From the NCBI GenBank assembly GCA_021776095.1, contig JAJFGO010000110.1, forward strand, positions 1 to 44,841: 44,841 nt of DNA. The letters run 5' to 3'. Position numbers and translations under genes: made by a program. The stretch comes from Kiloniellaceae bacterium (GTDB lineage Bacteria; Pseudomonadota; Alphaproteobacteria; Kiloniellales; J153). The notes under the pieces are model-generated. The model was not told the DNA's origin, ran no database searches, and was given only the letters and a program-made list of their open reading frames with translations. Position 1 is the stretch's first letter. Each line of letters starts with the position of its first letter. Positions 1,025 to 17,904 of this stretch are shown piece by piece.

Positions 1025-2161
1025 TCAGGCGGCTTTCGAGAATGCGATAAAACGTTCCAGGTGATGGTCGGCGTCGCCTAGTTGATGGTCGATCATGGTC
1101 AGGCGCTTCGCGTAGTGCGGCAGCGCGTAGTCCCAGGTCATGGCGATGCCGCCGTGCAGTTGGATCGAGTCCTCGGCGACCAGGCGGCCGACCCGTCCGA
1201 TCAGGTTCTTGGCGGCCGAGAGGGTCCGTTCGCGCTCCGCGCGCGGTGCGTCCAATTTTCCGGCGGCGAGCATGGTGGCGGACCGCGCCTGCTCGATCTC
1301 CAGGCACATATCGACCATGCGGTGTTGCAGGGCTTGGAACTTTCCCAGGGGCACGCCGAACTGCGTGCGTGTGCGCAGATAGTCCAGGGTCGTGTCGCGG
1401 CACACCTCCATGATGCCGAGGGCCTCCGCGCACAGGGCCAGGACACCGCGTCCGATAACGCGCTCGATGGCGGGATAGGCGGTCCCCGCCGTGCCGAGGC
1501 ACGTTTCGGCGGAAACCCGCGCGCCGACCAGGTCGATCTCCGCGGCGCGCCCGCCATCGACGGTCCCATAGCCGCGCCGGGTCACGCCCTCGGGGTCGCC
1601 GGCGACCAGGAACAGGCTCAGGCCGTCTGGGTCCGCCGCGTCGCCGCCGGTGCGCGCGGAGACAATCAGGGCGTCCGCCGTATCGCCGTTGAGCACCACC
1701 GATTTGCGTCCGTCCAGGATCCAGCCGCCGGCGTCCTCGCGCGCACGGGTGCGAACCTCCGATAGGGCATAGCGGCTGTCCGGCTCGCCATGGGCGAAGG
1801 CCAGCAAGCGGGTGCCGGCGATGACCTCGGCGATCTGCGCCTGTTGCGCCGCGGTTCCAGCCTCGGCGAGAAGGCCCGCGCCCAAGACCGCGCTGGCCAG
1901 GAACGGTTCGACCGCCAAGCCGCGGCCGACTTCTTCCATCACCACCATGATGTCCACGCCGGCGCCGCCTAAGCCGCCCATTTCCGCGGGCACAAGTGCG
2001 CCGATCAGACCCAAGTCCGCGAAGTCGGTCCAAAGTGCGCGGCTGAAGCCGTCGTCACTAGCGGCGAAATCGTGGCGCGCCTGGATCGGGTAACGCTCGC
2101 GGAACAGGCGCGCGGCGGTGTCGCGCAGGATGCGGCGCTCTTCCGAAAGTTCGAAGTCCAT
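1025..2161 (-). CDS. Acyl-CoA dehydrogenase, probable non-catalytic partner subunit
   Basis: This 378-aa flavoprotein-family protein spans the N-terminal helical, middle beta and C-terminal helical acyl-CoA dehydrogenase domains. It keeps the FAD/partner-contact elements RTQFGVPLGKFQ and QLHGGIAMTWDY. The C-terminal stretch after the latter reads LTMIDHQLGDADHHL, so the usual YEGT-type segment carrying the catalytic Glu is missing, and no obvious alternative Glu follows the FGxP helix. The adjacent upstream gene encodes a second dehydrogenase that does retain a candidate base. Such side-by-side pairs form alpha2beta2 enzymes in actinobacterial steroid side-chain catabolism, with one subunit catalytic. 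The start has a strong GGGGAGAGGA ribosome-binding site 6 nt upstream. The heteromer is inference. Confidence 0.85.
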   Translation of the reverse strand: MDFELSEERRILRDTAARLFRERYPIQARHDFAASDDGFSRALWTDFADLGLIGALVPAEMGGLGGAGVDIMVVMEEVGRGLAVEPFLASAVLGAGLLAEAGTAAQQAQIAEVIAGTRLLAFAHGEPDSRYALSEVRTRAREDAGGWILDGRKSVVLNGDTADALIVSARTGGDAADPDGLSLFLVAGDPEGVTRRGYGTVDGGRAAEIDLVGARVSAETCLGTAGTAYPAIERVIGRGVLALCAEALGIMEVCRDTTLDYLRTRTQFGVPLGKFQALQHRMVDMCLEIEQARSATMLAAGKLDAPRAERERTLSAAKNLIGRVGRLVAEDSIQLHGGIAMTWDYALPHYAKRLTMIDHQLGDADHHLERFIAFSKAA

Positions 2162-2176: not shown

Positions 2177-3373
2177 CTAGAGGCGCAGCATCTGTTTGGC
2201 GACGATGTTGCGCTGAATTTCGTTCGAGCCACCATAGATCGAAAGCTTACGCATGTTGAAATACTGGCGTGCCAGGGGCATGGCGTAGTCCGGCCCGATC
2301 GGCGCCTCGTTATAGCCTTCGTCGAAGGCCTCGGGCACGAAGGGCAAGGCATAGGGGCCGATCGCCCGGCGCAACAGGTCCGTGATCTCCTGGCGGATCA
2401 TTGTGCCCTTAATTTTCAGCATGGAGCTTTCAAGGCCCGGCGCGGTACCCGCCGCCGCGGCGCAGAGCGTGCGCAGATTGAGGGTCGCCATGGCCATGAG
2501 GTCGATCTCGACCTGCGCCACGCGGGCGGCGAACAGGGGGTTCTCGGCCAGGGGCCGGCCGTCACTCTTTTGATCGCGTGCGACTTGTTTCAGATGGTCC
2601 AGGCTCTGCAATGAGAAGGCGACCCCGGCGATGCCCGTGCGCTCGTGAGTGAGCAGGTACTTGGCGTAGGTCCAGCCCTTGTTCTCTTCGCCGACCAGGT
2701 TCGCCGCCGGAACCCGCACGTCTTCGAGAAAGACCTCGTTGATCTCGTGCTCGCCTTCCAAGGTGACGATCGGCCGCACGGTGATGCCAGGGCTGTCCAT
2801 GTCGATCAGCAGGAAGGAGATGCCTTCTTGCGGTTTAACCTGGGTATCTGTCTTGACCAGGCAAAACATCTTGTCGGCAAAGTGACCGAGCGTGGTCCAG
2901 GTTTTCTGTCCGTTGACGATGTAGTGGTCGCCGTCGCGCACCGCCCGGGTTTTGAGGGAAGCTAGGTCCGAGCCCGCGCCCGGCTCGCTATAGCCCTGGC
3001 ACCACCAGTCCTGGTCATTGAGGATACGCGGCAGGTAGGTACGTTTCTGCGCCTCGGTGCCGAACTTGATCAGCACCGGGCCCAGCATGTTCAGACCGAA
3101 GGGCACGATGCGCGGCGCGCCGGCGGCGATGCATTCCTCGTCGAAGATATGCTTTTGCACCGGCGTCCAGCCGGTGCCGCCGTGTTCGACCGGCCAATGC
3201 CAGGCGAGCCAGCCCCGCGCATTGAGCACGGCGTGCCAGGTCAGGTAGTCCCGCTTGTCGAGGCGCTTGCCATCCCGGACCTTGGCGGCCAGGGCGTGCG
3301 GCAAGTCCTCTTTCAAAAAGGCGCGCACCGATTCGCGAAACGCGGATTCCTCGGCGCTGAAGTTCATGTCCAT
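2177..3373 (-). CDS. Acyl-CoA dehydrogenase, probable catalytic subunit
   Basis: The 398-aa acyl-CoA dehydrogenase starts at MDMNFSAEES. The open frame extends 40 codons further upstream into the previous gene, but a GAGGGAA ribosome-binding site precedes 3373 and homologues begin here. The flavin-binding segment CQGYSEPGAGSDLASL lies at 125-140 and WTTLGHFAD near 159-167. At the C-terminus YGGSNEIQRN (380-389) replaces the classical YEGT, so the MCAD-position Glu is Gly381. Glu244 in LTHERTG (241-247) is the likely catalytic base, as in isovaleryl-CoA-type and ChsE2-type enzymes. It sits between the thiolase and the Glu-less dehydrogenase, spaced 16 and 15 bp. It should form the alpha-beta double bond of the pathway acyl-CoA, passing electrons to ETF. 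Confidence 0.88.
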   Translation of the reverse strand: MDMNFSAEESAFRESVRAFLKEDLPHALAAKVRDGKRLDKRDYLTWHAVLNARGWLAWHWPVEHGGTGWTPVQKHIFDEECIAAGAPRIVPFGLNMLGPVLIKFGTEAQKRTYLPRILNDQDWWCQGYSEPGAGSDLASLKTRAVRDGDHYIVNGQKTWTTLGHFADKMFCLVKTDTQVKPQEGISFLLIDMDSPGITVRPIVTLEGEHEINEVFLEDVRVPAANLVGEENKGWTYAKYLLTHERTGIAGVAFSLQSLDHLKQVARDQKSDGRPLAENPLFAARVAQVEIDLMAMATLNLRTLCAAAAGTAPGLESSMLKIKGTMIRQEITDLLRRAIGPYALPFVPEAFDEGYNEAPIGPDYAMPLARQYFNMRKLSIYGGSNEIQRNIVAKQMLRL

Positions 3374-3389: not shown

Positions 3390-4538
3390 CTAAAGCGTCG
3401 CCTCACTGCCCCAGATCGAGGTGACCTGCGACGACAACACGCCGCCGTTGCCGTGAGCCAGGGCGACCTTTGCGTTCTTGACCTGCCGGGCACCGGCCTC
3501 GCCGCGAATCTGCGTGACCGCCTCGATCATGGTGTAGAGGCCGTACATGCCTGGATGCACGCACGACAGCCCGCCGCCGGAGGTGTTGACCGGCAACGGG
3601 CCACCGGGCGCGATCCGCCCGCCGGAGACGAAAGGCCCGCCTTCGCCCTTGGCGCAAAAGCCTAGATCCTCCAAAAACAGAATCGTGTTGATGGTGAAGG
3701 CGTCGTAGAGCATCAGCAGGTCGATGTCCTTCCGCGCGACGCCGGCCATCTCGAAGGCGCGCGGCCCGCTATCCACGGCCGCCGAAACCGTAAGCGCCGG
3801 CATACACGAAATCATGCGGTGGTGATGCGCCATGGCCGCGCCCAGCAGGTAAACCGGCGCCTTGGGCCGGTCCTTGGCGCGATCGGCGCGGGTCATCACC
3901 ATGGCCGCGCCGCCGTCGGTGACCAGGCAGCAATCCAGCTTGCCCAGGGGATCGTTGATTATGCGGGCGTTCAAGACATCGTCGATACTCAACGGCCCCC
4001 GGGCGAAGGCATCCGGGTTGAGATTGGCCCATTGCCGCGCGGCCACCGCCACTTCCGCCATGTGGGTGCGAGTGGTGCCGAATTCGTGCATGTGGCGCGC
4101 GGCGGCCAGGGCATAGGCCGTGATCGGGTTGCGCGGCTTGAACGCGGCCTCGTAGGGCATGGGCTCCGAGATCGACGTAAAGCCCCCGGCGGAGCGCTGG
4201 TTCGAGCCGTAGGCGATAACCGCGACGTCGCACAGGCCTGCCTCCAAGGCCAGGGCGGCATTGAGTGCGTGGGCCTGAAACGACGATCCGCCGATGTTCG
4301 AACCGTTGGAGAACCTTGGCCGGACGCCCAGGTATTCCGCGACCGACATGGCGGGCATGGAATGCACCGCCGTTGCCGCGAAGACGCCGTCCACGTCGGC
4401 GATATTCAGACCGGCCTCAGCCAAGGCGATATGCACCGATTCGGCCAAAAGCTCCATGGCGCTGCGCCCCGGCGCCTCGCCACATCCCACCATGCCGACG
4501 CCGACGCAGGCGGCCGTGCCTCTCAAACTCTTGCTCAT
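3390..4538 (-). CDS. Ltp2/SCP2-type thiolase-like protein lacking the nucleophilic Cys
   Basis: The 382-aa protein has the thiolase fold of the lipid-transfer-protein clade. The segment that carries the acylated Cys in true thiolases reads NIGGSSFQAH (81-90), so Ser85/Ser86 replace it. The usual HDAF motif is YDAF (Tyr278), the GHP motif is VHPGMYG (His328, Tyr332), and the C-terminal CxG loop is AHGNGG (His362). This set matches the Ltp2-type retro-aldolases that use tyrosines and need a DUF35 partner, and a DUF35 protein is encoded 13 bp upstream in the same operon. I infer C-C cleavage of a beta-hydroxy- or beta-keto-acyl-CoA by a thiol-independent route. A degenerate thiolase with another substrate remains possible. 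The fold is certain, the chemistry is not. Confidence 0.85.
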   Translation of the reverse strand: MSKSLRGTAACVGVGMVGCGEAPGRSAMELLAESVHIALAEAGLNIADVDGVFAATAVHSMPAMSVAEYLGVRPRFSNGSNIGGSSFQAHALNAALALEAGLCDVAVIAYGSNQRSAGGFTSISEPMPYEAAFKPRNPITAYALAAARHMHEFGTTRTHMAEVAVAARQWANLNPDAFARGPLSIDDVLNARIINDPLGKLDCCLVTDGGAAMVMTRADRAKDRPKAPVYLLGAAMAHHHRMISCMPALTVSAAVDSGPRAFEMAGVARKDIDLLMLYDAFTINTILFLEDLGFCAKGEGGPFVSGGRIAPGGPLPVNTSGGGLSCVHPGMYGLYTMIEAVTQIRGEAGARQVKNAKVALAHGNGGVLSSQVTSIWGSEATL

Positions 4539-4551
4539 GCGGCGGGCTCTC

Positions 4552-4929
4552 TCACAGCGGGGTGAACAGGACTTGCGGCTGTCCGTCCAGGGCGGCCACG
4601 CGCGCGCGCACCTTCATACCGATCTTGACCGCCGTGGGTTCGACGTCGACCACCCGGCTCATCATGCGGGGCCCCTCGGCCAGATCGATCAAGGCGACGT
4701 TGTAGTCGCCGCCCTTTTCCGGGCGGTTGCGCACCACGGTGGTGGAATAGACCACGCCGTCGCCGCTGGCCTCGACCCAGTCCAGACCGGTTTCGCCGGT
4801 GCCGGGCACGGCGACGCGTGGATAGAACACATAGCGGCCGCTGTCCTTAGCGCGCTGGATCATAAACTTGCCCTCGGCCAGAAAGGCCCGGAATTGGGCC
4901 TCCGGCCCCAGGGTCGCGGTTTTACTCAT
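4552..4929 (-). CDS. DUF35 OB-fold protein without zinc-ribbon cysteines
   Basis: This 125-aa protein matches the DUF35/OB-fold family that partners Ltp2-like thiolases and HMG-CoA-synthase-like enzymes. The N-terminal helix (about 8-22) is followed by the position of the rubredoxin-like zinc ribbon, then an OB-fold from about residue 55 to the end (VVYSTTVVRN, YNVALIDLAEG, KVRARVAAL). The normal CxxC pairs are gone: the segment reads RAKDSGRYVFYPRVAVPGTG and the whole protein has no cysteine. The zinc site is therefore lost while the fold is probably kept. It overlaps the flavoprotein gene stop by 8 bp and has a GAGGGAGA ribosome-binding site. Its likely role is to complete the active site or acyl-CoA tunnel of the neighbouring thiolase-like protein. 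Confidence 0.85.
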   Translation of the reverse strand: MSKTATLGPEAQFRAFLAEGKFMIQRAKDSGRYVFYPRVAVPGTGETGLDWVEASGDGVVYSTTVVRNRPEKGGDYNVALIDLAEGPRMMSRVVDVEPTAVKIGMKVRARVAALDGQPQVLFTPL

Positions 4930-5914
4930 GCACCAAATCTCCCTCGTCCATCGTCGCGCTCAGACCCAAGCGGGCCCGTGCCGCGTTGTATTCCTGTTTA
5001 AGTCGCGCGATGAACACGGCCGTGTCGGCAATCTCCTTAACCGCCCCCACACCTTGCCCGGCGCTCCAGACATCCTTCCAGGCCTTGGCCTTGGAGCTGC
5101 CGCCCTCGAAGTTCATTTTCGAGGCATCGCTTTGCGGCAGATCGTTCGGGTCCATGCCGGCCGCTACGACGGACGGTTTCAGGTAATTACCCAGCACGCC
5201 GGAAAAGAAGTTCGTATAGACGATGTCGTTGGCCGCGCTCTCCACGATCATCTGTTTGTAGCCTTCGGGCGCGCGGGCCTCGTGGGTCGCGATAAAGGCG
5301 GAGCCGATATAGGCCAGGTCCGCGCCCATGGCCTGGGCCGCTAGCACCGCGCCGCCGGTCGCGATGGCGCCGGACAGCAACAGGGGGCCGTCGAACCAGG
5401 CCCGGATTTCCTGGATCAGCGCGAAGGGCGAGGTGATGCCGGCATGGCCGCCGGCCCCGGCCGCCACCGCGATCAAACCGTCCGCGCCTTTCTCGATGGC
5501 TTTGTGCGCGAAACGATTGTTGATGATGTCGTGCAGGGTGATCCCGCCATAGGAATGGGCGGCTTGGTTGACCTCCTCGCGCGCGCCGAGCGAGGTGATC
5601 AGGATCGGAACCTTGTGCTTCACGCAGACGTCCAAATCCTGCATCAAGCGCGGGTTGGAGCGGTGCACGATCTGGTTCACCGCATAGGGCGCGGCGGGCC
5701 GGTCCGGGTTCTTCTGGTTGTGCCGGTCGAGCGCCTCGGTGATGGTCTTAAGCCAGACCGCAAGTTCTTCCTGCGGGCGCGCGTTCAGGGCCGGAAAGGC
5801 GCCGACGATGCCCGCCGTGCATTGGGCGATCACCAGGTCCGGGTTGGAGACAATGAACAAGGGCGCGCCCACTGCGGGCAGCGACAGTCCCTGAAGGATC
5901 GGCGGCAAGGCCAT
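4922..5914 (-). CDS. Nitronate-monooxygenase-family FMN protein
   Basis: The 330-aa TIM-barrel protein has the NMO/2-nitropropane-dioxygenase pattern: an N-terminal PLFIVSNPDL strand, ITSLGAREEV, a GADGLIAVAAGAGGHAG phosphate/FMN-binding segment with the conserved His, GAIATGGAVLAAQAMGADLAYIGSAFI for the FMN phosphate, and an extended C-terminal lid. Within an acyl-CoA operon a nitroalkane oxidase makes little sense. Some NMO-like proteins of this kind act as flavin-dependent acyl-CoA oxidoreductases; IpdC of actinobacterial steroid-ring catabolism is the best-known case. I suggest a redox step on an acyl-CoA intermediate, unproven. A GAGGAG ribosome-binding site sits 8 nt before the ATG, just after the stop of the ligase gene. 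Confidence 0.85.
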   Translation of the reverse strand: MALPPILQGLSLPAVGAPLFIVSNPDLVIAQCTAGIVGAFPALNARPQEELAVWLKTITEALDRHNQKNPDRPAAPYAVNQIVHRSNPRLMQDLDVCVKHKVPILITSLGAREEVNQAAHSYGGITLHDIINNRFAHKAIEKGADGLIAVAAGAGGHAGITSPFALIQEIRAWFDGPLLLSGAIATGGAVLAAQAMGADLAYIGSAFIATHEARAPEGYKQMIVESAANDIVYTNFFSGVLGNYLKPSVVAAGMDPNDLPQSDASKMNFEGGSSKAKAWKDVWSAGQGVGAVKEIADTAVFIARLKQEYNAARARLGLSATMDEGDLVHE

Positions 5915-5927
5915 CAGCTAATTCTCC

Positions 5928-8030
5928 TCATGGCGCGCCTGTACGCTTGAGTATGAGGGCGTCGAGCGCGACGGCGCGATCGGGGAGCGCCCGCAGCGGA
6001 TTGAGCTCGACACTCTCAATGGTCTCAGCCTGCCCGGCGGCGAAACGCGATAGGAGTGAGATGGCTTCGGCCAGGGCGTCGAGATTGGCCGGTGGCGCGC
6101 CGCGCGCGCCCTTCAATAAGACCGCGCCCTTCAAATCCTCGATCATGGTTCGCGCCTCGGCCACGCCGATGGGCGCGCGGCGGAACGAAACGTCTTTCAA
6201 GACTTCGGTGAAAACGCCGCCCAGGCCGAACATGACCACCGGGCCGAAGACTGGATCGTTGCGCGCGCCCAGAATGCATTCCACCCCGCCCTCGACCATG
6301 GGCGAGACAAGGACGCCATCGATCCGGGCATTGGGCGCCTGTGCTTTCGCGCGTGTGACAATTTTCTCGAATTCGGCCGCTGCTCCCGATGGCGCGACAT
6401 CGAGGGCGACCCCGCCAATTTCGGTTTTGTGCGCGATATCGGGCGAGGCGATTTTCAGGGCGACGGGACCGCCAAAAGCCTGGGCAGCTGCGGTCGCGTT
6501 CTGCGCGTCGCGCGCCAGGGCATCCTCGACCATCGGCAGGCCGGCGGCTGCCAGGATCGTCTTGGCCTCGCGCTCGCCAAGAGAGCCCTCGGGCAAGGCC
6601 GTTGCCGGCAAGGGGGGCGGTGTTTCGTCGGGCCCGCGCGCGAAAGCCTGACCGAAATGCATCAGGGCCGCGATTGCCGCGACCGCGCGGGTTGGGTCTT
6701 CGAACACCAGGTGGCCCTCGGCCTCATAACGGTCGATAATTTCTTGTGTCGCGACCAGCGAATGCACCAACAGGCGATCTTCGAACCCGGCGATGCCCTT
6801 TTTCACCGCGCGTATAAGATTATCGGCGATGCTGGGGGCGCCCGCGACCGAGGTCCAGAATCCCAGGATCACGTCGTAGCCGCCCTGTTCCAACATGATC
6901 CGCATGTTGGTCTCGACCAAACTCATGTCGTTAAAGGCTTGTGCGGTCACATCGACCGGATTGCGCGGCGCGGCGAAGGGGAGCCGGGCCTTCAATTCCT
7001 TCTGTGCCGCTTCCGGCATGGGCGGAGTCTCAACCCCGTGATCTTCCGCGGCGTCGGCCATCAGGACGCCCGCGCCGCCGGAGATGGTGACCAGGCCAAG
7101 GCGATTGTTAACCGGAAAGATACGAGGCCGGCAGGCGTAAGCGATATCCAGCATTTCTTCGGTCGAGCGCGCCCGCCGGGCACCGTATTGGCGCAGGATG
7201 GCGTCGTAGACCGCGTCTTCGCCGGCCAGGGCGGCGGTATGAGAGCCGGCCGCTGCCGCGCCGGCTTTGGAACGGCCGACCTTCATGACGATGATCGGCT
7301 TGCGCGCCGCGCGCGCGATCTCCAAGGCCGCGATTAATCCAGGTCCGTCTTGTGCGCCCTCGATATAGGCCGCAATGGTATGCACGTCTTCGTCCTGCGC
7401 GAATAGACGGATGGTCTCCGCGACGTCGACATCGACCTCGTTGCCGGTGGTGATCAGTTTGCCGACTTTCAGTCCGCGCTGACGCGCGACCATATAGATG
7501 TGACTGCCGTAAGCGCCTGATTGGCTGGCGACGGCGAGGGGCCCCGGCTCCGGCGCATAGCGATCTATGGTGGCTGTGAAACTGGCCAGGAACCTGCTAC
7601 CCGCGTCGAAAGCACCCAGGCAGTTTGGCCCGATAATGCGTATGCCGGTTTCCCGTGCGATCTCTGCCATCTCGGCTTGCAAGGCGGCGCCGGCCGCGTC
7701 CGTTTCGGCGAAGCCGGAAGAGAAAACCAAGCATGCCTTGGCGCCCTTGTGCGCGGCCTCGCGGATCGCTTGGTTCACCGCCAGCGCGGGGACCGCGACG
7801 ATGGCATAGTCGATGGCCTGGTCGATCTCCGAAACCGAGGGAAAGCTGCGCAGACCCTGCACGCGGTCACGCTTTGGATTGACCGGCAGGATCGTGCCGG
7901 CAAAACCGTGCCTTAGCATGTAAGCGATCGGCCGGCCGCCGATCCGGGTCGGGTCGTCCGACGCGCCGACGACCGCGACCGCGCGCGGGCTCAAAAGATC
8001 GCTCAGGGTCGTCGCGTCGCGATGCGTCAT
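5928..8030 (-). CDS. Acyl-CoA synthetase, ADP-forming (acetate-CoA ligase) family
   Basis: The 700-aa single-chain ligase has the fused NDP-forming architecture: a CoA-binding Rossmann domain (about 10-140, VVGASDDPTRIGG and NPKRD), two succinyl-CoA-ligase-like flavodoxin domains (about 160-450) and a C-terminal ATP-grasp domain (about 480-695). His264 in GSHTAALAG is the phosphohistidine of the family. ATP-grasp features are LKIASPDIAHKTEIGGV and VMFGLGGVFTEVLKDVSFRRAP. It should activate a carboxylic acid to its CoA thioester from ATP and CoA, providing the entry step for the operon. It is separated from the upstream SDR by 10 bp and from the downstream flavoprotein by 13 bp. The ribosome-binding site is weak. 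The substrate cannot be read from the sequence. Confidence 0.9.
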   Translation of the reverse strand: MTHRDATTLSDLLSPRAVAVVGASDDPTRIGGRPIAYMLRHGFAGTILPVNPKRDRVQGLRSFPSVSEIDQAIDYAIVAVPALAVNQAIREAAHKGAKACLVFSSGFAETDAAGAALQAEMAEIARETGIRIIGPNCLGAFDAGSRFLASFTATIDRYAPEPGPLAVASQSGAYGSHIYMVARQRGLKVGKLITTGNEVDVDVAETIRLFAQDEDVHTIAAYIEGAQDGPGLIAALEIARAARKPIIVMKVGRSKAGAAAAGSHTAALAGEDAVYDAILRQYGARRARSTEEMLDIAYACRPRIFPVNNRLGLVTISGGAGVLMADAAEDHGVETPPMPEAAQKELKARLPFAAPRNPVDVTAQAFNDMSLVETNMRIMLEQGGYDVILGFWTSVAGAPSIADNLIRAVKKGIAGFEDRLLVHSLVATQEIIDRYEAEGHLVFEDPTRAVAAIAALMHFGQAFARGPDETPPPLPATALPEGSLGEREAKTILAAAGLPMVEDALARDAQNATAAAQAFGGPVALKIASPDIAHKTEIGGVALDVAPSGAAAEFEKIVTRAKAQAPNARIDGVLVSPMVEGGVECILGARNDPVFGPVVMFGLGGVFTEVLKDVSFRRAPIGVAEARTMIEDLKGAVLLKGARGAPPANLDALAEAISLLSRFAAGQAETIESVELNPLRALPDRAVALDALILKRTGAP

Positions 8031-8040
8031 GGATGACGGC

Positions 8041-8757
8041 TCATGCCGGGCCGGTCACGCTTAGGCCGCCGCAGACATACATCGTTTGCCCGGTGGTGAA
8101 GCCGGCCTCGTCGGACACGAAATATGCGGCCGCCGCCGCGACTTCCTGCGGCTGCCCCATGCGGTGCATCGGCACATTGGCGACGAAGGCCTCGCGCTCC
8201 GGCGATCCCGGCGGCAGGTTAGCGGCGAACAATTCGGTTTCGATCGGCCCCGGTGCGACGTTGTTGACGGTAATGCCGTGACTCGCCAGCTCGAGCGCCG
8301 CGCTACGGGTCAGGCCCAGGATTGCCGCCTTGGAGGCGGAATAGATCAACCTTGTCGCCTTGCCCAGGCCGGCGCGGCTGCCGATCATGACGACCCGGCC
8401 GAAACTTGCCGCCTTCATGTTGGGTATCGTGGCCTGCAGGGCCCAAATACCTGCCTGCACGTTCAGGCGCATGGTGGCGTCGAACTCGGCGTCCGTGGCA
8501 TCCTCGATCGACGCGGGCGCGACCAGGCCGGCATTGTGAACCAGACGCAGGACCTTGAATTCGTCGGCGATCTCCGCCAGGACGGCCTTAGCAGTCTTTT
8601 CTTCGGACAGATCGGCGGCATAAAAGCGGCCGGGGAAATCCTTCGGCTCGCTGCGCGACACGCCGATGACCTGGTAGCCTTGGCCGGCCAGTTGGGTCGC
8701 GATGGCCGCGCCGATGCCGCGGCTGACGCCGGTGATCAGGACATTCTTGTTTGCCAT
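8041..8757 (-). CDS. Short-chain dehydrogenase/reductase (3-oxoacyl reductase-like)
   Basis: The 238-aa SDR starts at MANKNVLITG; the frame stays open for 13 more codons but these overlap the upstream gene, and a GAGGGCGG site precedes 8757. The nucleotide-binding loop GVSRGIG lies at 10-16, NAG at 75-77, and the catalytic residues are Ser127, Tyr139 and Lys143 in YSASK. The C-terminal Q(E)VAAAAAYFVSDEAGFTTGQTMYVCGG pattern is typical of FabG-like enzymes. Its place next to a 3-hydroxyacyl-CoA dehydrogenase suggests oxidation of a different hydroxyacyl-CoA or ring alcohol in the same pathway. NADP versus NAD preference is not obvious; an Arg after the second strand (SRSE) could fit NADP. Confidence 0.88.
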   Translation of the reverse strand: MANKNVLITGVSRGIGAAIATQLAGQGYQVIGVSRSEPKDFPGRFYAADLSEEKTAKAVLAEIADEFKVLRLVHNAGLVAPASIEDATDAEFDATMRLNVQAGIWALQATIPNMKAASFGRVVMIGSRAGLGKATRLIYSASKAAILGLTRSAALELASHGITVNNVAPGPIETELFAANLPPGSPEREAFVANVPMHRMGQPQEVAAAAAYFVSDEAGFTTGQTMYVCGGLSVTGPA

Positions 8758-8767
8758 CGCGCCGCCC

Positions 8768-11324: not shown

Positions 11325-12995
11325 TTAAGCTTCCCCGCGCAGCTTGGTAATGGTGATGTAGGCGGAGATCGCCTCCAGGCTGCTGCGCACGTCGACCACC
11401 ACCGCGCGCGGGCAGGCTAGGGCTTGGGCGGCGACGTCTTCCGCCTGTTCCGGCGTTTCGACCGTCAGGCCCTCGGCGCCGAAGGCTCGGCCCCAGGCGG
11501 CGAAGTCGGGATTGGCCAGGTCGGTCGCCACGGTGCGGCGCGGATAATCGCGTTCCTGGTGCAGGCGAATGGTGCCGTAGGACCCGTTGTTGGAGACGAA
11601 TATCTTTGGGGTCGCGCCCTGGGCGATGCCGGTCGCCAGTTCGTTGCCGGTCATCATCACGCCGCCGTCGCCGACGAAGGCCAGGACCGTACGCCCTGGA
11701 AAACGTAACGAGGCCGCGACCGCCCCGGGCACGCCCAGGCCCATGGCGCCGCCGACCGCGCCCATGCAAAGCTGGGTTCCATCCCAAGGCCAAATCCGGT
11801 GCACCCAGCTGGCGAAATTGCCCGCGTCGGTGACCACGATTGCATCCCGCGGCGCGCCTTTGGCCAGGGGCGCGACAACCGCGCCAAAATCTACCCCGTC
11901 AGGCCAGTTTCGCGGCGCATAGCGCCTCATCGCAGCCGCCTTTTCGCCAAGTTTTGCCGTCCACGCCCGTCTTTCGTCGTCGATTTGGGCGTTGCGCGCC
12001 GCCAATCCGGTCAAAAAAGCGGCCGGCGCGCAGGCCAAACCCAAATCGGTACGGAAGATGCCGCCGATCTTCGCCGGGTCCGGGTAAACGTGGATCAGCG
12101 GCTGTGTCGGGCACGGCGCCTTGGGGAAACTATAGCCCTGGGTCGGCACGTCACCCAGGCGGGTGCCAACCGCGATCACCAGATCGGCTTCGGCCAGGGC
12201 CTCGACCTGGGGCTTGGGGATCTTGAATCCCAGGTGACCAGCGAATAGCGGCGATGCGTTATCGAAGATCTCCTGATGCTTGAAGGTCAAGGCGACTGGC
12301 AGGTGATGTGCCTCGGCAGCGCGGGCCAAGGCTTGCCGGCCGGCCGGGTCGCTCAAGGCGCCGCCGGCCACTAGCAAGGGGCGCTTGGCCCGGTTCAGCA
12401 AGGTCATGACCTGGTCGAGGTCGCTGTCCCCCGGCGCGACTGTTGCGATCGGCAGGGGCGGAACCAATGGGGCGGTGCAGTCGTCGCTCAGCATGTCTTC
12501 GGGCAGGGCTATGACCACGGCGCCCGGGGTGCCGCTCATAGCCAGATGATAGGCGCGCGCCAAGGTTTCGCTCAGGCGGTTCGCGTCATGCACCTCCCAC
12601 ACCGCCTTGGCCATGTCGGAGAAGGTCTTGGCGTAGTCGACCTCCTGAAAGGCGCCGCGACCGCGCTCGTTCCGCGCCACCTGGCCGATCAGCACGATCA
12701 GCGGCGCCGCATCCTGGTCCGCCGAATGGATCGCGATGGATACGTTGGTCGCGCCCGGCCCCCGACTGACCGCGACCACCCCGGGCCGGCCGGTCATCTT
12801 GGCGTCGGCCAGGGCCATGAAACCGGCGCCCCCCTCGTGACGGCAGGTGACCACGTGGATTCCGCCCTCTTTGCCGCCGTTTTGCCCGGCTAAGGCGTCG
12901 AGTAGGGCTAGATAGCTTTCGCCTGGCACGCAGAAAATTCGGTCCGTGCCCTGGGCGACCAGGGCCTCCACCAGGGCGTCCGCGCCACGTGTCAT
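11325..12995 (-). CDS. ThDP-dependent enzyme of the acetolactate-synthase family
   Basis: The 556-aa protein starts at MTRGADALVE, 7 nt after a GGAAGGAA site. It has the Pyr domain with the cofactor-activating Glu54 (RHEGGAGFMA), a central domain (about 190-320) and a PP domain with the GDG...NN ThDP motif (GDGGVMMTGNELATG ending in VSNNGSYG). The family includes acetolactate synthase, sulfoacetaldehyde acetyltransferase, benzoylformate decarboxylase and oxalyl-CoA decarboxylase. No regulatory small subunit is encoded beside it, arguing against biosynthetic acetolactate synthase. It is divergent from a TAXI-TRAP importer across a large palindrome, so it may act on the imported 2-oxo acid or related substrate. 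The substrate is unknown. Confidence 0.85.
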   Translation of the reverse strand: MTRGADALVEALVAQGTDRIFCVPGESYLALLDALAGQNGGKEGGIHVVTCRHEGGAGFMALADAKMTGRPGVVAVSRGPGATNVSIAIHSADQDAAPLIVLIGQVARNERGRGAFQEVDYAKTFSDMAKAVWEVHDANRLSETLARAYHLAMSGTPGAVVIALPEDMLSDDCTAPLVPPLPIATVAPGDSDLDQVMTLLNRAKRPLLVAGGALSDPAGRQALARAAEAHHLPVALTFKHQEIFDNASPLFAGHLGFKIPKPQVEALAEADLVIAVGTRLGDVPTQGYSFPKAPCPTQPLIHVYPDPAKIGGIFRTDLGLACAPAAFLTGLAARNAQIDDERRAWTAKLGEKAAAMRRYAPRNWPDGVDFGAVVAPLAKGAPRDAIVVTDAGNFASWVHRIWPWDGTQLCMGAVGGAMGLGVPGAVAASLRFPGRTVLAFVGDGGVMMTGNELATGIAQGATPKIFVSNNGSYGTIRLHQERDYPRRTVATDLANPDFAAWGRAFGAEGLTVETPEQAEDVAAQALACPRAVVVDVRSSLEAISAYITITKLRGEA

Positions 12996-13065
12996 GCTGT
13001 GTTCCTTCCGATCGTCAAATGGTTCCGCCACCGCCCGCTTGCCGGGCTGGCTAACTTGGACTAGC

Positions 13066-13096
13066 TTGTTTTGCGAAACGCAGTTTCGCAAAACAA
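13066..13096. promoter_or_regulatory. Perfect 13-5-13 palindrome, candidate operator
   Basis: TTGTTTTGCGAAA (13066-13078), spacer CGCAG, then TTTCGCAAAACAA (13084-13096) form a flawless dyad in the 150-bp divergent gap between the ThDP-enzyme gene (start 12995) and the TAXI binding-protein gene (start 13146). It lies 49 bp before the latter. Its size and symmetry suit a dimeric or tetrameric repressor such as IclR or GntR. A hairpin function is possible but no T-run follows. Confidence 0.65.
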
Positions 13097-13145
13097 TAAT
13101 TCCTGGCTGGGCCAAAGGTCCGCCGAAAACTATGGGAGGATTGCA

Positions 13146-14300
13146 ATGTTGAGGACTTTCAAGCTCCTCGCCTTGGTGGGTCTAGGCGGTGTCATGGTCG
13201 CCGGGCATGCACTGGCCGGGGATATCAAGCTGCCGAGCCAGATCGCCTGGACCGCTTACGGGACCGGATCGGCCGGATACAACCAGTCGGTTGCCGTCGG
13301 TTCGGCGCTGAAATCCGCGTTGGGCATCGATCTGCGCGTCCTGCCCGGCAAGAACGATATTGCGCGGACCGAACCGCTGCGGCAAGGCAAGGTCGAGTTT
13401 TCCGCGACCGGCGTCGGCGGTTCCTTCATGGCGCAAGAAGGCGCCTTCGCCTTCGGCAAGCCCAATTGGGGGCCGCAGCCGGTGCGGGTGCTGCTGGCCA
13501 ACAACGGCGGCGCCATCAACCTCGCGGTCGGCGTTGCCGGCGATATCGGGGTCAAGGAATATGCGGATCTCAAGGGCAAGCGCGTTGCCTGGGTCAAGGG
13601 TGCTCCGGCGCTCAACGTCAATACCACGGCCTATTTGGCCTATGCCGGCCTGACCTGGGACGACGTCATCAAGGTCGAGTTCGGCGGCTTTGGCGCGTCC
13701 TGGAAGGGCCTGGTCAACAATCAGGTCGACGCGGCCTTTGCCTCGACCAACTCGGGCAAAGCCTACGAGGCGGCGGCCTCGCCGCGTGGCCTGGTTTGGC
13801 CCAAAATCCATCACGACGACAAGGACGGTATCGCGCGAATGCAGGCGATCGCGCCGTTCTTCACGCCTAACAAGGCCCGGGTCGGCGCCAACATCGACGG
13901 TGGAGAGCCTTACGAAGGCGCCGGTTATGCCTATCCGGTTCTGGTCGCCATGGCCGCGCAGGACGCGGACTTGGTCTACAACATGACCAAGGCCATGGTC
14001 GAGCTGTTCGACCAATACGACGGCAAGGCGCCCGGAATCGGCGGCTGGGCCCTGGCCAAGCAGAACTTCGAATGGGTCGCCCCCTTCCACGACGGTGCGA
14101 TTCGATATTACAAGGAAACCGGCTCCTGGACGGACAAGGCCCAGGCCCATAACGACAGTCTGCTCGCCCGCCAGGCGGCCCTGGCCGGCGCTTGGAAAGC
14201 CTTGAAGGCCCAGGGGCTCGCGGACGACGCCTGGGGCGCGGCCTGGACCGAGGTGCGCCGCAAGACGCTCAAAGACGGCGGTTTCGAAGTCGTCTTCTAG
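13146..14300 (+). CDS. TAXI family TRAP transporter substrate-binding protein
   Basis: The 384-aa protein begins at MLRTFKLLALVGLGG after a strong GGGAGG site at 13134-13139. A signal peptide (about 1-24, cleavage near GHALAG) exports it to the periplasm. The mature part begins with IAWTAYGTGSAGYNQSVAVGSAL, the TAXI pattern for two-lobed binding proteins of the NMT1/THI5-like type, and contains ATGVGGSFMAQEG and VDAAFASTNSGKAYE. It presents an unknown solute, in known cases often a dicarboxylate or amino acid such as glutamate, to the fused permease encoded next. A hairpin between the two genes probably lowers permease expression. The protein is longer than many TAXI members (about 320 aa) because of a longer C-terminal helical section. 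Confidence 0.9.
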   Translation: MLRTFKLLALVGLGGVMVAGHALAGDIKLPSQIAWTAYGTGSAGYNQSVAVGSALKSALGIDLRVLPGKNDIARTEPLRQGKVEFSATGVGGSFMAQEGAFAFGKPNWGPQPVRVLLANNGGAINLAVGVAGDIGVKEYADLKGKRVAWVKGAPALNVNTTAYLAYAGLTWDDVIKVEFGGFGASWKGLVNNQVDAAFASTNSGKAYEAAASPRGLVWPKIHHDDKDGIARMQAIAPFFTPNKARVGANIDGGEPYEGAGYAYPVLVAMAAQDADLVYNMTKAMVELFDQYDGKAPGIGGWALAKQNFEWVAPFHDGAIRYYKETGSWTDKAQAHNDSLLARQAALAGAWKALKAQGLADDAWGAAWTEVRRKTLKDGGFEVVF

Positions 14301-14313
14301 TCGGGGTTCCCGT

Positions 14314-14345
14314 GCGCCGCGCCGGTCTGCGAGCCGGCGCGGCGC
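14314..14345 (+). terminator. Intercistronic GC hairpin after the TAXI gene
   Basis: GCGCCGCGCCGG (14314-14325) pairs perfectly with CCGGCGCGGCGC (14334-14345) over an 8-nt loop. There is no T-run. It lies 13 bp after the binding-protein stop and 33 bp before the permease start, a position where hairpins protect the upstream mRNA and partly attenuate transcription. Confidence 0.6.
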
Positions 14346-14378
14346 CGTTATTCACCTAGACCGGCGCGAGAGCGAAAA

Positions 14379-16364
14379 ATGACCCAAGGCCGGGCGCCGA
14401 CGCCCCTCGTCGAGGACGCCGGCAACCGCCGAGAATTCGGCGCGTTGGCCCGCACCACCGTCATCGTCGGCACCCTGGCCGCCATCGCAATCTCGATCCA
14501 CCAGCTTTTCAATCTGCAACTTTTCGGCCTCGTGGTGTTGGAGGGCCGCTATCTCTATATTCTGGGCGGGATCTTCCTGGCCCTGACCTTCCTTTGTTTT
14601 CGCGGCACGGCACGCGGGCATCGCGGCGTGCCCTGGTGGGACGCGCTTTTGGCGCTAGTCGCGGCGATCGGCTGCGGCTACTTCGCCTGGACCGCGGATA
14701 TCAGCCTCGAACTGGGTTGGGAGTACGCGCCGCCGGAGGTGGCGCAATGGGTGTCGGTCCTGATGTGGCTGTTGATCCTCGAGGCGACGCGGCGCGCCGG
14801 CGGCACCACGATCTTTGTGATCGTCCTGGTGTTTTCGCTCTACCCGACTTTCGCGGACAAGCTGCCGGGCCCGATCTCCGGCTTCGCGCAGCCGTTCTGG
14901 GACGCGATTCCCTATCACATGATCTCCTCGGAAAGTTCGTTCGGGATTCCGATGCGCGCCTTCGGCAATCTGGTGATCGGTTTCATCCTGTTCGGCGCCG
15001 TGTTGCAGCGTACCGGCGGCGGTCAGTTTTTCAACGACTTGGCGCTCGCCTTGGTCGGCAAGTATCGCGGCGGCGCGGCCAAGGTCGCGATCTTCGCCAG
15101 CGGCTTCATGGGCTCCATGTCCGGTTCAGTCATATCCAATGTGCTGACCACCGGCTCGGTCTCGATCCCGGCCATGAAGCGCACCGGATTTTCCGCGCGT
15201 TACGCCGCCGCGACCGAGGCCTGCGCCTCGACCGGCGGGGTGCTGATGCCGCCGATCATGGGCGCGACCGCCTTCGTCATGGCCTCGTTCCTGTCGCGCC
15301 CCTATATCGAGATCGCGCTCGCCGCGGCGATTCCATCCCTGCTGTATTATTTCGGCTTGTTCGCGCAGATTGATGCCTATGCCGCGCGGCGCGGCCTCAA
15401 GGGCTTGGAGCCTCACGAGGTGCCGTCTTTGCGGGGCGCCATGCGGGAGGGTTGGATATACCTCTTCGTTTTCGCCCTGTTGATTTTCATGATGGTTGCC
15501 CTTCGCCAGGATACGCTGGCGCCGTTCTATGCCACCGGCCTGTTGCTGGTCATCAATCAGCTGGTCAAGAAATACCGCTTCACTTGGCGTACGGCTGGCG
15601 ACCTGGTGGTCGCGGTCGGCCGCGCCTTGGCGGAGTTGGTCGCCGTCCTGATCGGCGTCGGTCTGATCGTGGGCGCGTTCTCGGCGACCGGTTTGGCTGG
15701 GACCTTGGTCAACGACCTGATCTTCCTGGCCGGCGGCTCGACCGTCATGTTGCTGATCATGGGCGCGATCACCGCCTTCATCTTCGGCATGGGGATGACG
15801 GTTACCGCCTGTTACATCTTCTTGGCCGTGGTCCTGGCCCCCGCCTTGGTGCAGGCCGGTCTGAACACCTTGGCGGTGCATCTCTTCATTCTCTATTGGG
15901 GCATGGTCAGCTACATCACGCCGCCGGTCGCGCTGGGCGCCTTCGCGGCGGCTACCATGGCCAATACCGGCGCGCTCAAGGTCGGGCTCGAGGCCATGCG
16001 CTTAGGCGGCGTGATTTACATCGCGCCCTTCTTCTTCGTGCTCAATCCGGCACTGGTCGGCGAAGCCGGCACGGCCGAGGTCATGGCCGCCTTGGTGACC
16101 GCCTTGATCGGGGTGTGGTTCATAAGCGCCGCCTTGCAAGGGCATCTCAGCTTCATCGGCGGTTTCGATGACCGCTTGGCCGGTTGGCTCATGCGGGGCG
16201 TATTGCTGGCGGCCGGATTGTGTTTCGCCTATCCCGGCGGTGGCGGGACCGGTCTTTCCCATTGGGCCTTTAGCGCCATCGGATTGGTTCTCGCCGTGCC
16301 GTCCTTTCTCTATGCCAGGCGCTTCGCTCAGCGCGAAGCCGCCGCGCTCACAGATAATCTTTGA
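14379..16364 (+). CDS. TRAP transporter fused permease (4TM/12TM)
   Basis: The 661-aa integral membrane protein combines the small DctQ-like and large DctM-like TRAP subunits, as usual for TAXI systems. The N-terminal part (about 20-150) has four hydrophobic segments; the remainder carries the large-subunit segments. Conserved stretches include GSVISNVLTTGSVSIPAMKRTGFSA, GGVLMPPIMGATAFVMASFL and MVSYITPPVALGAFAAATMA, which line the substrate and Na+ path. It works with the TAXI protein encoded upstream as a sodium-coupled secondary importer. Its last 17 bp overlap the 3' end of the convergent acyl-CoA synthetase gene. The ribosome-binding site is weak (AGAGCGAAAA). Confidence 0.92.
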   Translation: MTQGRAPTPLVEDAGNRREFGALARTTVIVGTLAAIAISIHQLFNLQLFGLVVLEGRYLYILGGIFLALTFLCFRGTARGHRGVPWWDALLALVAAIGCGYFAWTADISLELGWEYAPPEVAQWVSVLMWLLILEATRRAGGTTIFVIVLVFSLYPTFADKLPGPISGFAQPFWDAIPYHMISSESSFGIPMRAFGNLVIGFILFGAVLQRTGGGQFFNDLALALVGKYRGGAAKVAIFASGFMGSMSGSVISNVLTTGSVSIPAMKRTGFSARYAAATEACASTGGVLMPPIMGATAFVMASFLSRPYIEIALAAAIPSLLYYFGLFAQIDAYAARRGLKGLEPHEVPSLRGAMREGWIYLFVFALLIFMMVALRQDTLAPFYATGLLLVINQLVKKYRFTWRTAGDLVVAVGRALAELVAVLIGVGLIVGAFSATGLAGTLVNDLIFLAGGSTVMLLIMGAITAFIFGMGMTVTACYIFLAVVLAPALVQAGLNTLAVHLFILYWGMVSYITPPVALGAFAAATMANTGALKVGLEAMRLGGVIYIAPFFFVLNPALVGEAGTAEVMAALVTALIGVWFISAALQGHLSFIGGFDDRLAGWLMRGVLLAAGLCFAYPGGGGTGLSHWAFSAIGLVLAVPSFLYARRFAQREAAALTDNL

Positions 16365-17904
16365 GCTTGTTCTTCAGGATCTTGCCGGTGGGCGCCGCCG
16401 GCAACTCCGCCATCACGCGGTAGTCGCTCGGCCGCTTGTAGGGGGCCAGGCATCCGGCGGCATGGGCCCGCAGGCCGGCCAGGTCGATTTCGCGGCCGGG
16501 CCTGGGTTGCAGGAAGGCGACAACTTCCTCGTTGCCGTCCTCGGTCTTGCGCCCGATAACGGCCGCCATGGCGACATCGGGATGGGCGCTTAGCACGCCT
16601 TCCACCTCCGGCGGATAAACATTGAAGCCGGAGCGGATGATGAGTTCCTTGACCCGGCCTTCCACATAAAGCCGCCCCTGCGCGTCCAGGCGGCCCAGAT
16701 CGCCGGACTTGAAGAATCCGTCCGGCGTCATCCGCGCCGCGGTATCTTCCGGCGCCCGGTAATAGCCCGTCATGACCAAGCGGCCGCGAATTTCGATCTC
16801 GCCGACCTCATCGGGCGCGGCCGGGGTTCCATCCGGCCGGGCGATTCGCAGGGTGACGCCAGGCAGGGCCGGGCCGGTGCTTTGATCCGTGGCCGGGGCC
16901 TCGATCCGGGTCGTGGTCGCCGTCGGCGAGGTTTCGGTCAGGCCGTAGCCGTTGTGTAGCGGCAGCCCCCACAGCGCTTCGACCCGGGACTTGAGCGCCG
17001 GGTCGAGGGGCGCGCCGCCGGCCGAGATGTAGCGTAAGCGCGGCGCCGGCAGACCGCCGCGCGATTGGGCCAAGGCGGCCAGGCGCGCGTACATTTGCGG
17101 GACGCCTTGAAATACCGTGATGCCGTCTTTGGCCAGTGCGCGGGCCACGGCGTCGACGTCGAAACGCGGCACCAAATCCAGGCGCGCGCCCTGATATAGC
17201 GTGCCGTTCAGGACCGAGGCCAAGCCGAAGACGTGGCTGATCGGCAGCACCGCGTAAATCCGGTCGGACGGTGTCAGGCACCGCAGCTCGGAACTGCGGC
17301 CGGCGATAAACATGAGATTGTCGTGACTCAGCATGACGCCCTTGGGCGCACCGGTGGTGCCGGTCGTATAGATCAGCGCCGCGACCTGCCGCACCGCATC
17401 TTGCGACACGGCCTCGGGCGCGCCGGGCGCGGGGCCTTCGGCTAGACGCGCGCCAAACTTGTCGAGCGTCCCGCCCGCTGCCGCGTGCCAGCGCACGCCA
17501 TGGGCGGAGGCATCGCGCGAGGCGCCGTCGGTCGTGACGATCAGGCGCGGCGTGCAATGCGCGACAATCGCCTCGACCTCTGGGGCCGATAGCCTGGCAT
17601 TGAGGGGAACCGCCCAGGCGCGCAACCTCTGCGCCGCGAAGATCGCCAAGGCGGCCGCGATCGAATTCTCGCACAGGATCAGCAGGCGGTCGCCGGCCGC
17701 GAGGCCGCGTGTCGAAAACGCGTCGGCCGTGGCCCCGATCGCCACTTCCAGGGCGCCGTAGCTCAGGCAGCCGTTTGCATCCGCGATCGCCACGGCGTCC
17801 GGCTGGCGTTCGGCCCAATAGGCGATGCTGTCGCCGCACCAGGCGAAGCGATCGCAAGGCAAGGCGGCGGCTCCCGGCGGTTCGTCTCTCAAATCGCGTT
17901 CCAT
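16348..17904 (-). CDS. AMP-forming acyl-CoA synthetase
   Basis: The 518-aa adenylating enzyme carries the ANL-family motifs: P-loop YTTGTTGAPKG (179-189), NGYGLTETSPT, the SGDLGRLDAQG hinge, GRVKELIIRSGFNVYP, and the C-terminal PTGKILKNKL with catalytic Lys508. It converts a carboxylic acid, ATP and CoA to acyl-CoA, AMP and pyrophosphate. It follows a polytopic membrane protein gene by 28 bp on the same strand, suggesting uptake and activation of one acid. The start lacks a clear ribosome-binding site; translation may couple to the upstream gene. It differs mechanistically from the ADP-forming ligase at 5928, so the window has two acid-activation routes. The substrate is unknown. Confidence 0.9.
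   Translation of the reverse strand: MERDLRDEPPGAAALPCDRFAWCGDSIAYWAERQPDAVAIADANGCLSYGALEVAIGATADAFSTRGLAAGDRLLILCENSIAAALAIFAAQRLRAWAVPLNARLSAPEVEAIVAHCTPRLIVTTDGASRDASAHGVRWHAAAGGTLDKFGARLAEGPAPGAPEAVSQDAVRQVAALIYTTGTTGAPKGVMLSHDNLMFIAGRSSELRCLTPSDRIYAVLPISHVFGLASVLNGTLYQGARLDLVPRFDVDAVARALAKDGITVFQGVPQMYARLAALAQSRGGLPAPRLRYISAGGAPLDPALKSRVEALWGLPLHNGYGLTETSPTATTTRIEAPATDQSTGPALPGVTLRIARPDGTPAAPDEVGEIEIRGRLVMTGYYRAPEDTAARMTPDGFFKSGDLGRLDAQGRLYVEGRVKELIIRSGFNVYPPEVEGVLSAHPDVAMAAVIGRKTEDGNEEVVAFLQPRPGREIDLAGLRAHAAGCLAPYKRPSDYRVMAELPAAPTGKILKNKLKDYL

Follow-up and report, generated by a model that had tools for sequence, protein, structure and literature searches.

Which reaction is carried out by a thiolase-fold protein that has no cysteine at the catalytic positions and is encoded beside a DUF35 gene? 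The question is raised by contig JAJFGO010000110.1 of a Kiloniellaceae bacterium (assembly GCA_021776095.1), which was analyzed over its whole length of 44,841 nucleotides and is called the window here. It is part of a draft genome of 4.98 Mb (95.4% complete, 4.4% contamination). The thiolase-fold gene (3390..4538, minus strand) is an intact open reading frame (ORF) for 382 amino acids of the PRK06158 family. A gene for a DUF35/OB_ChsH2_C protein of 125 amino acids (4552..4929, minus strand; PF01796, 75.8 bits against a cut-off of 27.1) is placed 13 bp from it. Judged from the active site residues and the tree, there is slightly better than an even chance that the pair is a thiol-independent acyl-CoA retro-aldolase of a separate clade, with the thiolase-fold protein as catalytic subunit and DUF35 as its partner. 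A sequence-only reading of the same DNA had described an Ltp2-type thiolase without cysteine directly beside a DUF35 gene. It is partly confirmed here: it was right about a fold without catalytic cysteine next to DUF35, wrong about a serine nucleophile, and too narrow in naming the Ltp2 type.

The thiolase-fold protein matched PRK06158 with 626.6 bits against a curated cut-off of 421, over residues 2-382. NCBIfam names this family 'acetyl-CoA acetyltransferase', and the function in that name is taken here as a label only. By sequence, the nearest solved structures were 4u4e, 9myr (CtSal) and 6ok1 (TcLtp2), and the same three were the top matches of the predicted fold (TMq 0.85-0.87). The protein possesses eight cysteines in total and none of them is at a catalytic position; the description 'cysteine-less' holds for the active site and not for the whole protein. 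To identify the active site columns, a multiple alignment of the protein with its homologues, the solved structures and AtoB and FadA of E. coli was used. The nucleophilic cysteine of AtoB, FadA, 7yvy, 6esq, BbsB (7pxp) and the T. brucei SCP2 thiolase aligned to Gly84 (codon 4287..4289; all codons given are on the minus strand), and glycine was found in the same column in CtSal, TcLtp2 and 4u4e. The nucleophile had earlier been placed at Ser85 or Ser86. This is contradicted by the glycine in the cysteine column, by the variability of Ser85 (entropy rank 172 of 382 columns) and by the glycine which Sal likewise has there (PMC12329534; this and the other papers cited are used in excerpt). The histidine or asparagine of the HDxF/NExF motif of Cys-type thiolases aligned to Tyr278 (3705..3707), which corresponds to Tyr294 of TcLtp2 and Tyr302 of CtSal. 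Thus both the nucleophilic cysteine and the oxyanion residue of Cys-dependent thiolases are replaced in the window protein, by Gly84 and Tyr278. Ala280 (3699..3701) is in the position of His296 of TcLtp2 and Cys304 of CtSal, while His328 (3555..3557) is in that of Tyr344 of TcLtp2, Gln352 of CtSal and the GHP histidine of thiolases. The YDAF motif at residues 278-281 and the HPGMYG motif at residues 328-333 had been recognized correctly before. His362 (3453..3455), within HGNGG, falls in the loop of the second cysteine of classical thiolases, where the alignment is less sure than elsewhere and the exact register is unsure. In 4yzo, column 84 is serine and column 278 is histidine. The HDAF of 4bia is not natural, as this entry is a Cys337Ala mutant according to its title.

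The conservation of these columns was analyzed in two sets of homologues, 36 from class-wide searches with the whole protein and 77 distinct ones from 80 loci of a named scan of species genomes; removal of duplicates from 140 sequences left 114, and without the copy from the window itself 113. Because DCCLVTDG and LYDAFTI[NT] served as seeds of the named scan, its counts at Tyr278 and Ala280, unlike the class-wide ones, are biased; the scan represents the best 80 of at least 588 stretches encoding relatives, nearly all titled Pseudomonadota. Gly84 together with Tyr278 was present in all class-wide (36/36) and all named-scan homologues (77/77), and His328 in 35/36 and 77/77, respectively. Gly84, Tyr278 and Asp279 were invariant across the window protein and the 36 class homologues; with His328 and His362 added, all five residues were invariant in 15 aligned sequences including the window. 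Written as a code for columns 84/278/280/328/362, the site reads GYAHH in the window, in 73 of the 77 named and in 20 of the 36 class homologues. The other four named homologues have GYAHN. GYSHH was found in 10 of the 36 class homologues and in 4u4e, and the remaining six class members have GYCHS (2), GYSHS, GYCHH, GYCHT and GYDQA. CtSal has GYCQS and TcLtp2 has GYHYA, and by comparison of these residues GYAHH would add a third variant to the aldolase sites. The closest relatives among the named-scan matches are from Kiloniellaceae metagenome-assembled genomes (L034-L036, 86-90% identity). Plasmid-borne relatives also exist, for example in NZ_CP010871.1 of Actibacterium sp. EMB200-NS6 from an oil-contaminated tidal flat (67.6% identity), and 560 plasmid records contain some homologue at 1e-10.

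To understand the relationship between these enzymes, a tree of 67 rows was constructed with IQ-TREE under LG+C20, in which every fourth of the 77 distinct named sequences (20) was included. All Gly/Tyr enzymes, Sal and Ltp2 among them, formed one 60-row group with 100/99 support, and AtoB, FadA, 7yvy, 6esq, 4yzo, TbSCP2 and BbsB were placed outside. A phylogeny against Ltp2, SCP2 and classical thiolases had been suggested as a check on the sequence-only reading, and in it the window protein did not group with Cys thiolases. The protein belongs to a 35-row clade of its own (100/99) with members from Alpha-, Beta- and Gammaproteobacteria, outside the Ltp2 and Sal branches. TcLtp2, a long branch and the sole proven Ltp2 in the tree, paired with L141 (100/94), and with L033 and L123 it formed a 98/86 group. 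CtSal formed a solitary long branch, and 4u4e was positioned among class homologues in the clade neighbouring that of the window. As a result of the long branches, the branching order among Sal, Ltp2 and the rest is unsure. Membership of the window protein in the Ltp2 or Sal family was considered and ruled out by motif and tree.

The closest solved relative by sequence and fold is 4u4e, a 'thiolase' of Sphaerobacter thermophilus, which shares the code except at column 280 (YDSF in place of YDAF). To our knowledge, no function is known for 4u4e, and no publication on the PRK06158/4u4e-type family was found within the literature searched. BbsAB (7pxp), the benzoylsuccinyl-CoA thiolase, combines a thiolase fold with a DUF35 subunit and has the same Ala-His-His at columns 280/328/362, but it keeps cysteine and histidine at columns 84 and 278 and branches outside the Gly/Tyr clade. 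Ltp2 acts on the beta-hydroxyacyl-CoA of steroids as part of a complex with ChsH1-ChsH2. Ltp2/ChsH2-DUF35 of Thermomonospora curvata (6ok1), the aldolase of the steroid C3 side chain, has in common with the window pair the glycine column, the YDxF tyrosine, the DUF35 partner and the thiolase fold. In TcLtp2, Tyr294 of YDHF is the base, His296 is part of the oxyanion hole and Tyr344 is the acid (PMC12329534). The label 'Ltp2-type' therefore fits Gly84, the base Tyr278 and the genetically linked DUF35 gene, and fails with Ala280 in place of His296, His328 in place of Tyr344 and the position outside the Ltp2 branch; moreover, the window DUF35 is a stand-alone protein without zinc ligands. Sal/Shy-DUF35 of Comamonas testosteroni (9myr), the aldolase of the bile-acid C5 side chain, similarly shares the glycine column, the catalytic tyrosine, the DUF35 partner and the origin in Pseudomonadota. 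Tyr302 and Cys304 of its YDCY motif are essential, and glycine replaces the thiolase nucleophilic cysteine (PMC12329534), while the window protein has Ala280 for Cys304 and His328 for Gln352. In Shy, the DUF35 domain retains zinc ligands of the Cys3His1 type and is joined to a MaoC hydratase in one polypeptide (PMC12329534, PMC11321319). Neither feature is present in the window, where the single DUF35 protein of the genome is encoded in an open frame of 135 codons and is therefore not fused to MaoC. IpfD/IpfE of Rhizorhabdus wittichii, likened here by description, is a pair of a thiolase-like and an OB-fold protein in Pseudomonadota for a non-steroid acid, ibuprofen, and gives a precedent outside steroid breakdown. 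The ipfDE genes are held to yield isobutylcatechol and propionyl-CoA (PMC9195938, PMC11347016), and this pair works with an aromatic ring dioxygenase and not with acyl-CoA dehydrogenases.

The DUF35 gene is a nearly constant neighbour in the loci of this family that were analyzed. A DUF35 ORF adjoined the gene in 30/30 loci of the class search (window included), and a same-strand DUF35 ORF was found in 79/80 named loci; in L112 the match starts at base 65 of a contig. Within L005-L113, 108 loci contain a DUF35 ORF, and in each of them its frame either overlaps that of the thiolase-fold gene or is separated from it by no more than 21 bp. In L092 the DUF35/thiolase-fold pair occurs twice, once on each strand, and just one of the two is of the near kind. 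As controls, a search of the same 142 genomes with 7yvy provided 20 loci of Cys thiolases, all with HDCF. The loci were selected by hand among the upper matches of each list, contigs of sufficient length being required (20 of 60 matches for the controls and 20 of 51 for YD[AS]F), and the 20 YD[AS]F loci overlap the 30 of the class search. A stand-alone DUF35 gene was present in 20/20 YD[AS]F loci compared to 1/20 HDCF controls (Fisher p 3e-10).

Cysteine is entirely absent from the DUF35 protein encoded in the window, a feature missed by the sequence-only reading, and a four-Cys rubredoxin-like zinc ribbon is thus absent as well. The model of the protein had a mean pLDDT of 91.8 (85-87 at residues 31-50), with an N-terminal helix and a strand at residues 23-27 in the ribbon region. 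The best fold matches were the ChsH2 and Shy DUF35 chains (TMq 0.81-0.82, 125-131 columns), and Foldseek ranks 1-21 were all DUF35-type chains, the kind of 9skh, 9vbo and 9vbt being judged by entry titles. Zinc ligands were counted in an alignment on the ChsH2 DUF35 chain, with duplicates kept (at least L007 and L039 look like one genome). Among 108 DUF35 homologues (L005-L113), 53 have four cysteines, 44 have none and 11 have one, and there is no protein with two or three. Mapped on a quick tree of the partner enzymes with Shy taken as zinc-bearing, this pattern gave 8 changes, at least 5 of them on well-supported branches. In the excerpts of a 2025 paper, four cysteines are described in all DUF35 homologues compared except Shy with Cys3His1 (PMC12329534). 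A partner without ligands is therefore a clear departure from that rule, earlier reports of such partners having had no dedicated search. An ADP-forming ligase was encoded on the same strand for 32 of 42 DUF35 rows without zinc ligands and for 0 of 35 with them (L034-L113). This link is given as an observation only, as it comprises at most three independent pairs (one well-supported) from a hand-typed list of loci and may reflect one or a few clades.

The pair belongs to a set of nine genes arranged head to tail with short gaps on the minus strand, from 10267 to 238. The first encodes a PaaH-like 3-hydroxyacyl-CoA dehydrogenase (PRK08268; 8768..10267, start chosen by us inside a longer ORF). 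It is followed, by family matches, by a short-chain dehydrogenase (8041..8760), an ADP-forming acyl-CoA ligase (CoA_binding_2, Succ_CoA_lig and ATP-grasp_5; 5928..8030) and a nitronate-monooxygenase-type flavoprotein (4922..5914), the gene of which overlaps at its end the start of the DUF35 gene by 8 bp. After the DUF35 and thiolase-fold genes, family matches point to a PimC-like acyl-CoA dehydrogenase of the large subunit type (2177..3373), a PimD-like one of the small subunit type (1025..2161) and an enoyl-CoA hydratase family protein (oxepin-CoA hydrolase alternative type/PRK07511; 238..1023). The start codons of the short-chain dehydrogenase and PimC-like genes were also chosen by us. A similar context was found across the family. 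Of the 80 named loci, 52 are flanked on each side by 8 kb or more, and neighbours were counted in these at E up to 1e-15. Acyl-CoA dehydrogenase was found near 40, enoyl-CoA hydratase near 35, ADP-forming CoA ligase near 22 and AMP-forming ligase near 20 of them, while a classical thiolase was near only two, on the opposite strand in both. The family neighbourhood is thus an acid-breakdown setting. Acyl-CoA dehydrogenases were present in 11/20 YD[AS]F loci compared to 3/20 control loci (p 0.02), and short-chain dehydrogenases, some of which can replace 3-hydroxyacyl-CoA dehydrogenase, in 10/20 compared to 5/20.

Besides its single DUF35 protein, the window genome has one Thiolase_C_1 protein over the cut-off with no second copy, and no second CtSal match was found in it at 1e-40. 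Sal and Ltp2 are each accompanied by their own DUF35-bearing hydratase (PMC11321319), and steroid breakdown is therefore unlikely. The sequence-only reading of a non-steroid operon is likely to be right on these gene counts, which fall short of proof, the steroid ring-degradation genes having had no search. From the chemistry and the PimC/PimD-like dehydrogenases, we would guess that acids with branches or rings, which form tertiary alcohols, are the substrates.

If the pair acts as a retro-aldolase, the acid would be activated by the ADP-forming CoA ligase, dehydrogenated as acyl-CoA by the acyl-CoA dehydrogenase pair and then hydrated by the enoyl-CoA hydratase. Tyr278 would deprotonate the beta-hydroxyl, and the bond between C-alpha and C-beta would break to give a carbonyl product and an acyl-CoA enolate. 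His328, perhaps along with His362, would protonate the enolate, replacing Tyr344 of Ltp2 or Cys304 of Sal in this role, and Gly84 would be in contact with the beta-hydroxyl, a role that has been suggested for Gly89 in Sal. Even without zinc ligands, the DUF35 protein is predicted to keep its fold. By analogy with Sal and Ltp2, the subunits are probably arranged as DUF35-aldolase-aldolase-DUF35.

Several observations weigh against a retro-aldolase. Alanine, the residue at position 280 here, abolishes the activity of CtSal when introduced as Cys304Ala (PMC12329534), so the second catalytic group here must be a residue other than Ala280, a role that His328 or His362 may fill. The model has pLDDT below 50 at residues 322-330, the loop of His328, and the geometry there is unsure. 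The operon holds a 3-hydroxyacyl-CoA dehydrogenase, which is unneeded in a pure aldolase route. The same enzyme is encoded on the same strand in five near relatives (L034, L036, L038, L039 and L040) and is missing from L035 (86% identity), and a FadB-like gene is present in six SAR116-type loci (L056, L063, L066, L071, L075 and L078). Absence of this dehydrogenase had been considered as an argument for an aldolase and was dropped, since the controls equally lack the enzyme (1/20 YD[AS]F and 1/20 control loci; 3/52 named loci plus 3 with FadB-like genes) and the window has one. DUF35 also accompanies Cys thiolases, as in 10 of the 20 controls, BbsAB and 6esq, and by itself is no argument for an aldolase. 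When any DUF35 domain is counted, fused ones included, the difference is reduced to 20/20 YD[AS]F loci against 10/20 controls (Fisher p 4e-4). In nine control loci, profile search and Pfam assigned DUF35 to the C-terminal part of a larger KAS-III-like protein (about 480-520 residues), the gene of which adjoins the thiolase gene or is located in its vicinity. These KAS-III-DUF35 proteins are near HDCFS-type Cys thiolases from the class of the window (L151, L154, L156, L157, L158, L160, L162, L163 and L164), an arrangement which recalls the archaeal thiolase/HMG-CoA synthase/DUF35 complex. The profile search detected DUF35 in 6/20 control loci at 1e-3 and in 10/20 at E up to 1; nine of the ten ORFs exceed the PF01796 cut-off, and that of L163 exceeds only the one for zf-ChsH2. 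The idea that DUF35 marks Tyr-type enzymes, as the counts from a single BLAST query had suggested, was dropped when the profile search found these fused domains. The claim was consequently narrowed to stand-alone DUF35, our confidence in a retro-aldolase was lowered slightly, and the DUF35 neighbour, used as a sign in the sequence-only reading, carries less weight than was given to it there.

Part of this evidence would suit a thiolase or Claisen-type enzyme on 3-ketoacyl-CoA, in which the CoA thiolate acts directly and His328 and His362 provide acid-base catalysis with no covalent cysteine intermediate. The 3-hydroxyacyl-CoA dehydrogenase of the operon, the kept GHP histidine, the NCBIfam label and the DUF35 domains near half of the controls are all in line with it, as is the Ala-His-His of BbsB, a true thiolase with DUF35, though one in which column 84 is Cys and column 278 is His. 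Such an enzyme is rather improbable given glycine for the nucleophilic cysteine and tyrosine for the oxyanion His/Asn in 113/113 homologues (77 of them motif-seeded) and the position of the protein in the tree, on the side of the aldolases and apart from the Cys thiolases. A different C-C lyase that uses Tyr/His on acyl-CoA (an aldol synthase in the building direction, a retro-Claisen hydrolase or a decarboxylase) would agree with the varied neighbours, some loci having no acyl-CoA dehydrogenase or hydratase found nearby. Related thiolase folds are also known to do other chemistry, such as the acylase PhlC and TbSLP with its slow malonyl-CoA decarboxylation (PMC12329534). We regard this as unlikely, because tyrosine for the HDxF histidine along with glycine for the cysteine is the signature common to both proven retro-aldolases, and the gene content of the operon is catabolic. 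Change of both classical cysteine positions and of the HDxF histidine could also hint at a catalytically dead scaffold or regulator with DUF35, and inactive thiolase-fold partners such as PhlA are known (PMC2954200). The invariance of the five active site residues in 15 sequences speaks against this, as does the window genome, in which no second copy over the cut-off could serve as the active partner, and a dead protein is very improbable.

With the retro-aldolase as the preferred reading, a wider proposal can be made tentatively, which we hold to be possible but on balance doubtful. PRK06158 may represent a third, widespread class of acyl-CoA retro-aldolases with a Tyr-His(-His) site in place of Tyr-Tyr or Tyr-Cys, acting in the breakdown of acids with branches or rings, in which the beta-hydroxyacyl-CoA, as a tertiary alcohol, could not be oxidized to a ketone. 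The zinc site may have been lost several times as a whole from its DUF35 partners with the fold kept, zinc being dispensable for the scaffold. If this is true, the present names of hundreds of genes, thiolase or acetyl-CoA acetyltransferase, would be wrong, and C-C cleavage by thiolase-fold aldolases would be a general route of acid catabolism beyond steroids. A third type of active site from nature would also become available for the aldol chemistry of acyl-CoA and be of use in biocatalysis. The existence of DUF35 partners with and without zinc makes the role of zinc in DUF35 a testable question.

Two further features of gene order were observed. In L035 (8636-9610), the flavoprotein gene is joined to the DUF35 and thiolase-fold genes and the remaining operon was not found there, which hints that these three genes form a three-part unit. 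Upstream of the operon, positions 11325-17904 of the window encode a TPP enzyme (PRK08199), a TRAP-type transporter protein (DctM) and an AMP-forming ligase, which may belong to the same catabolic region.

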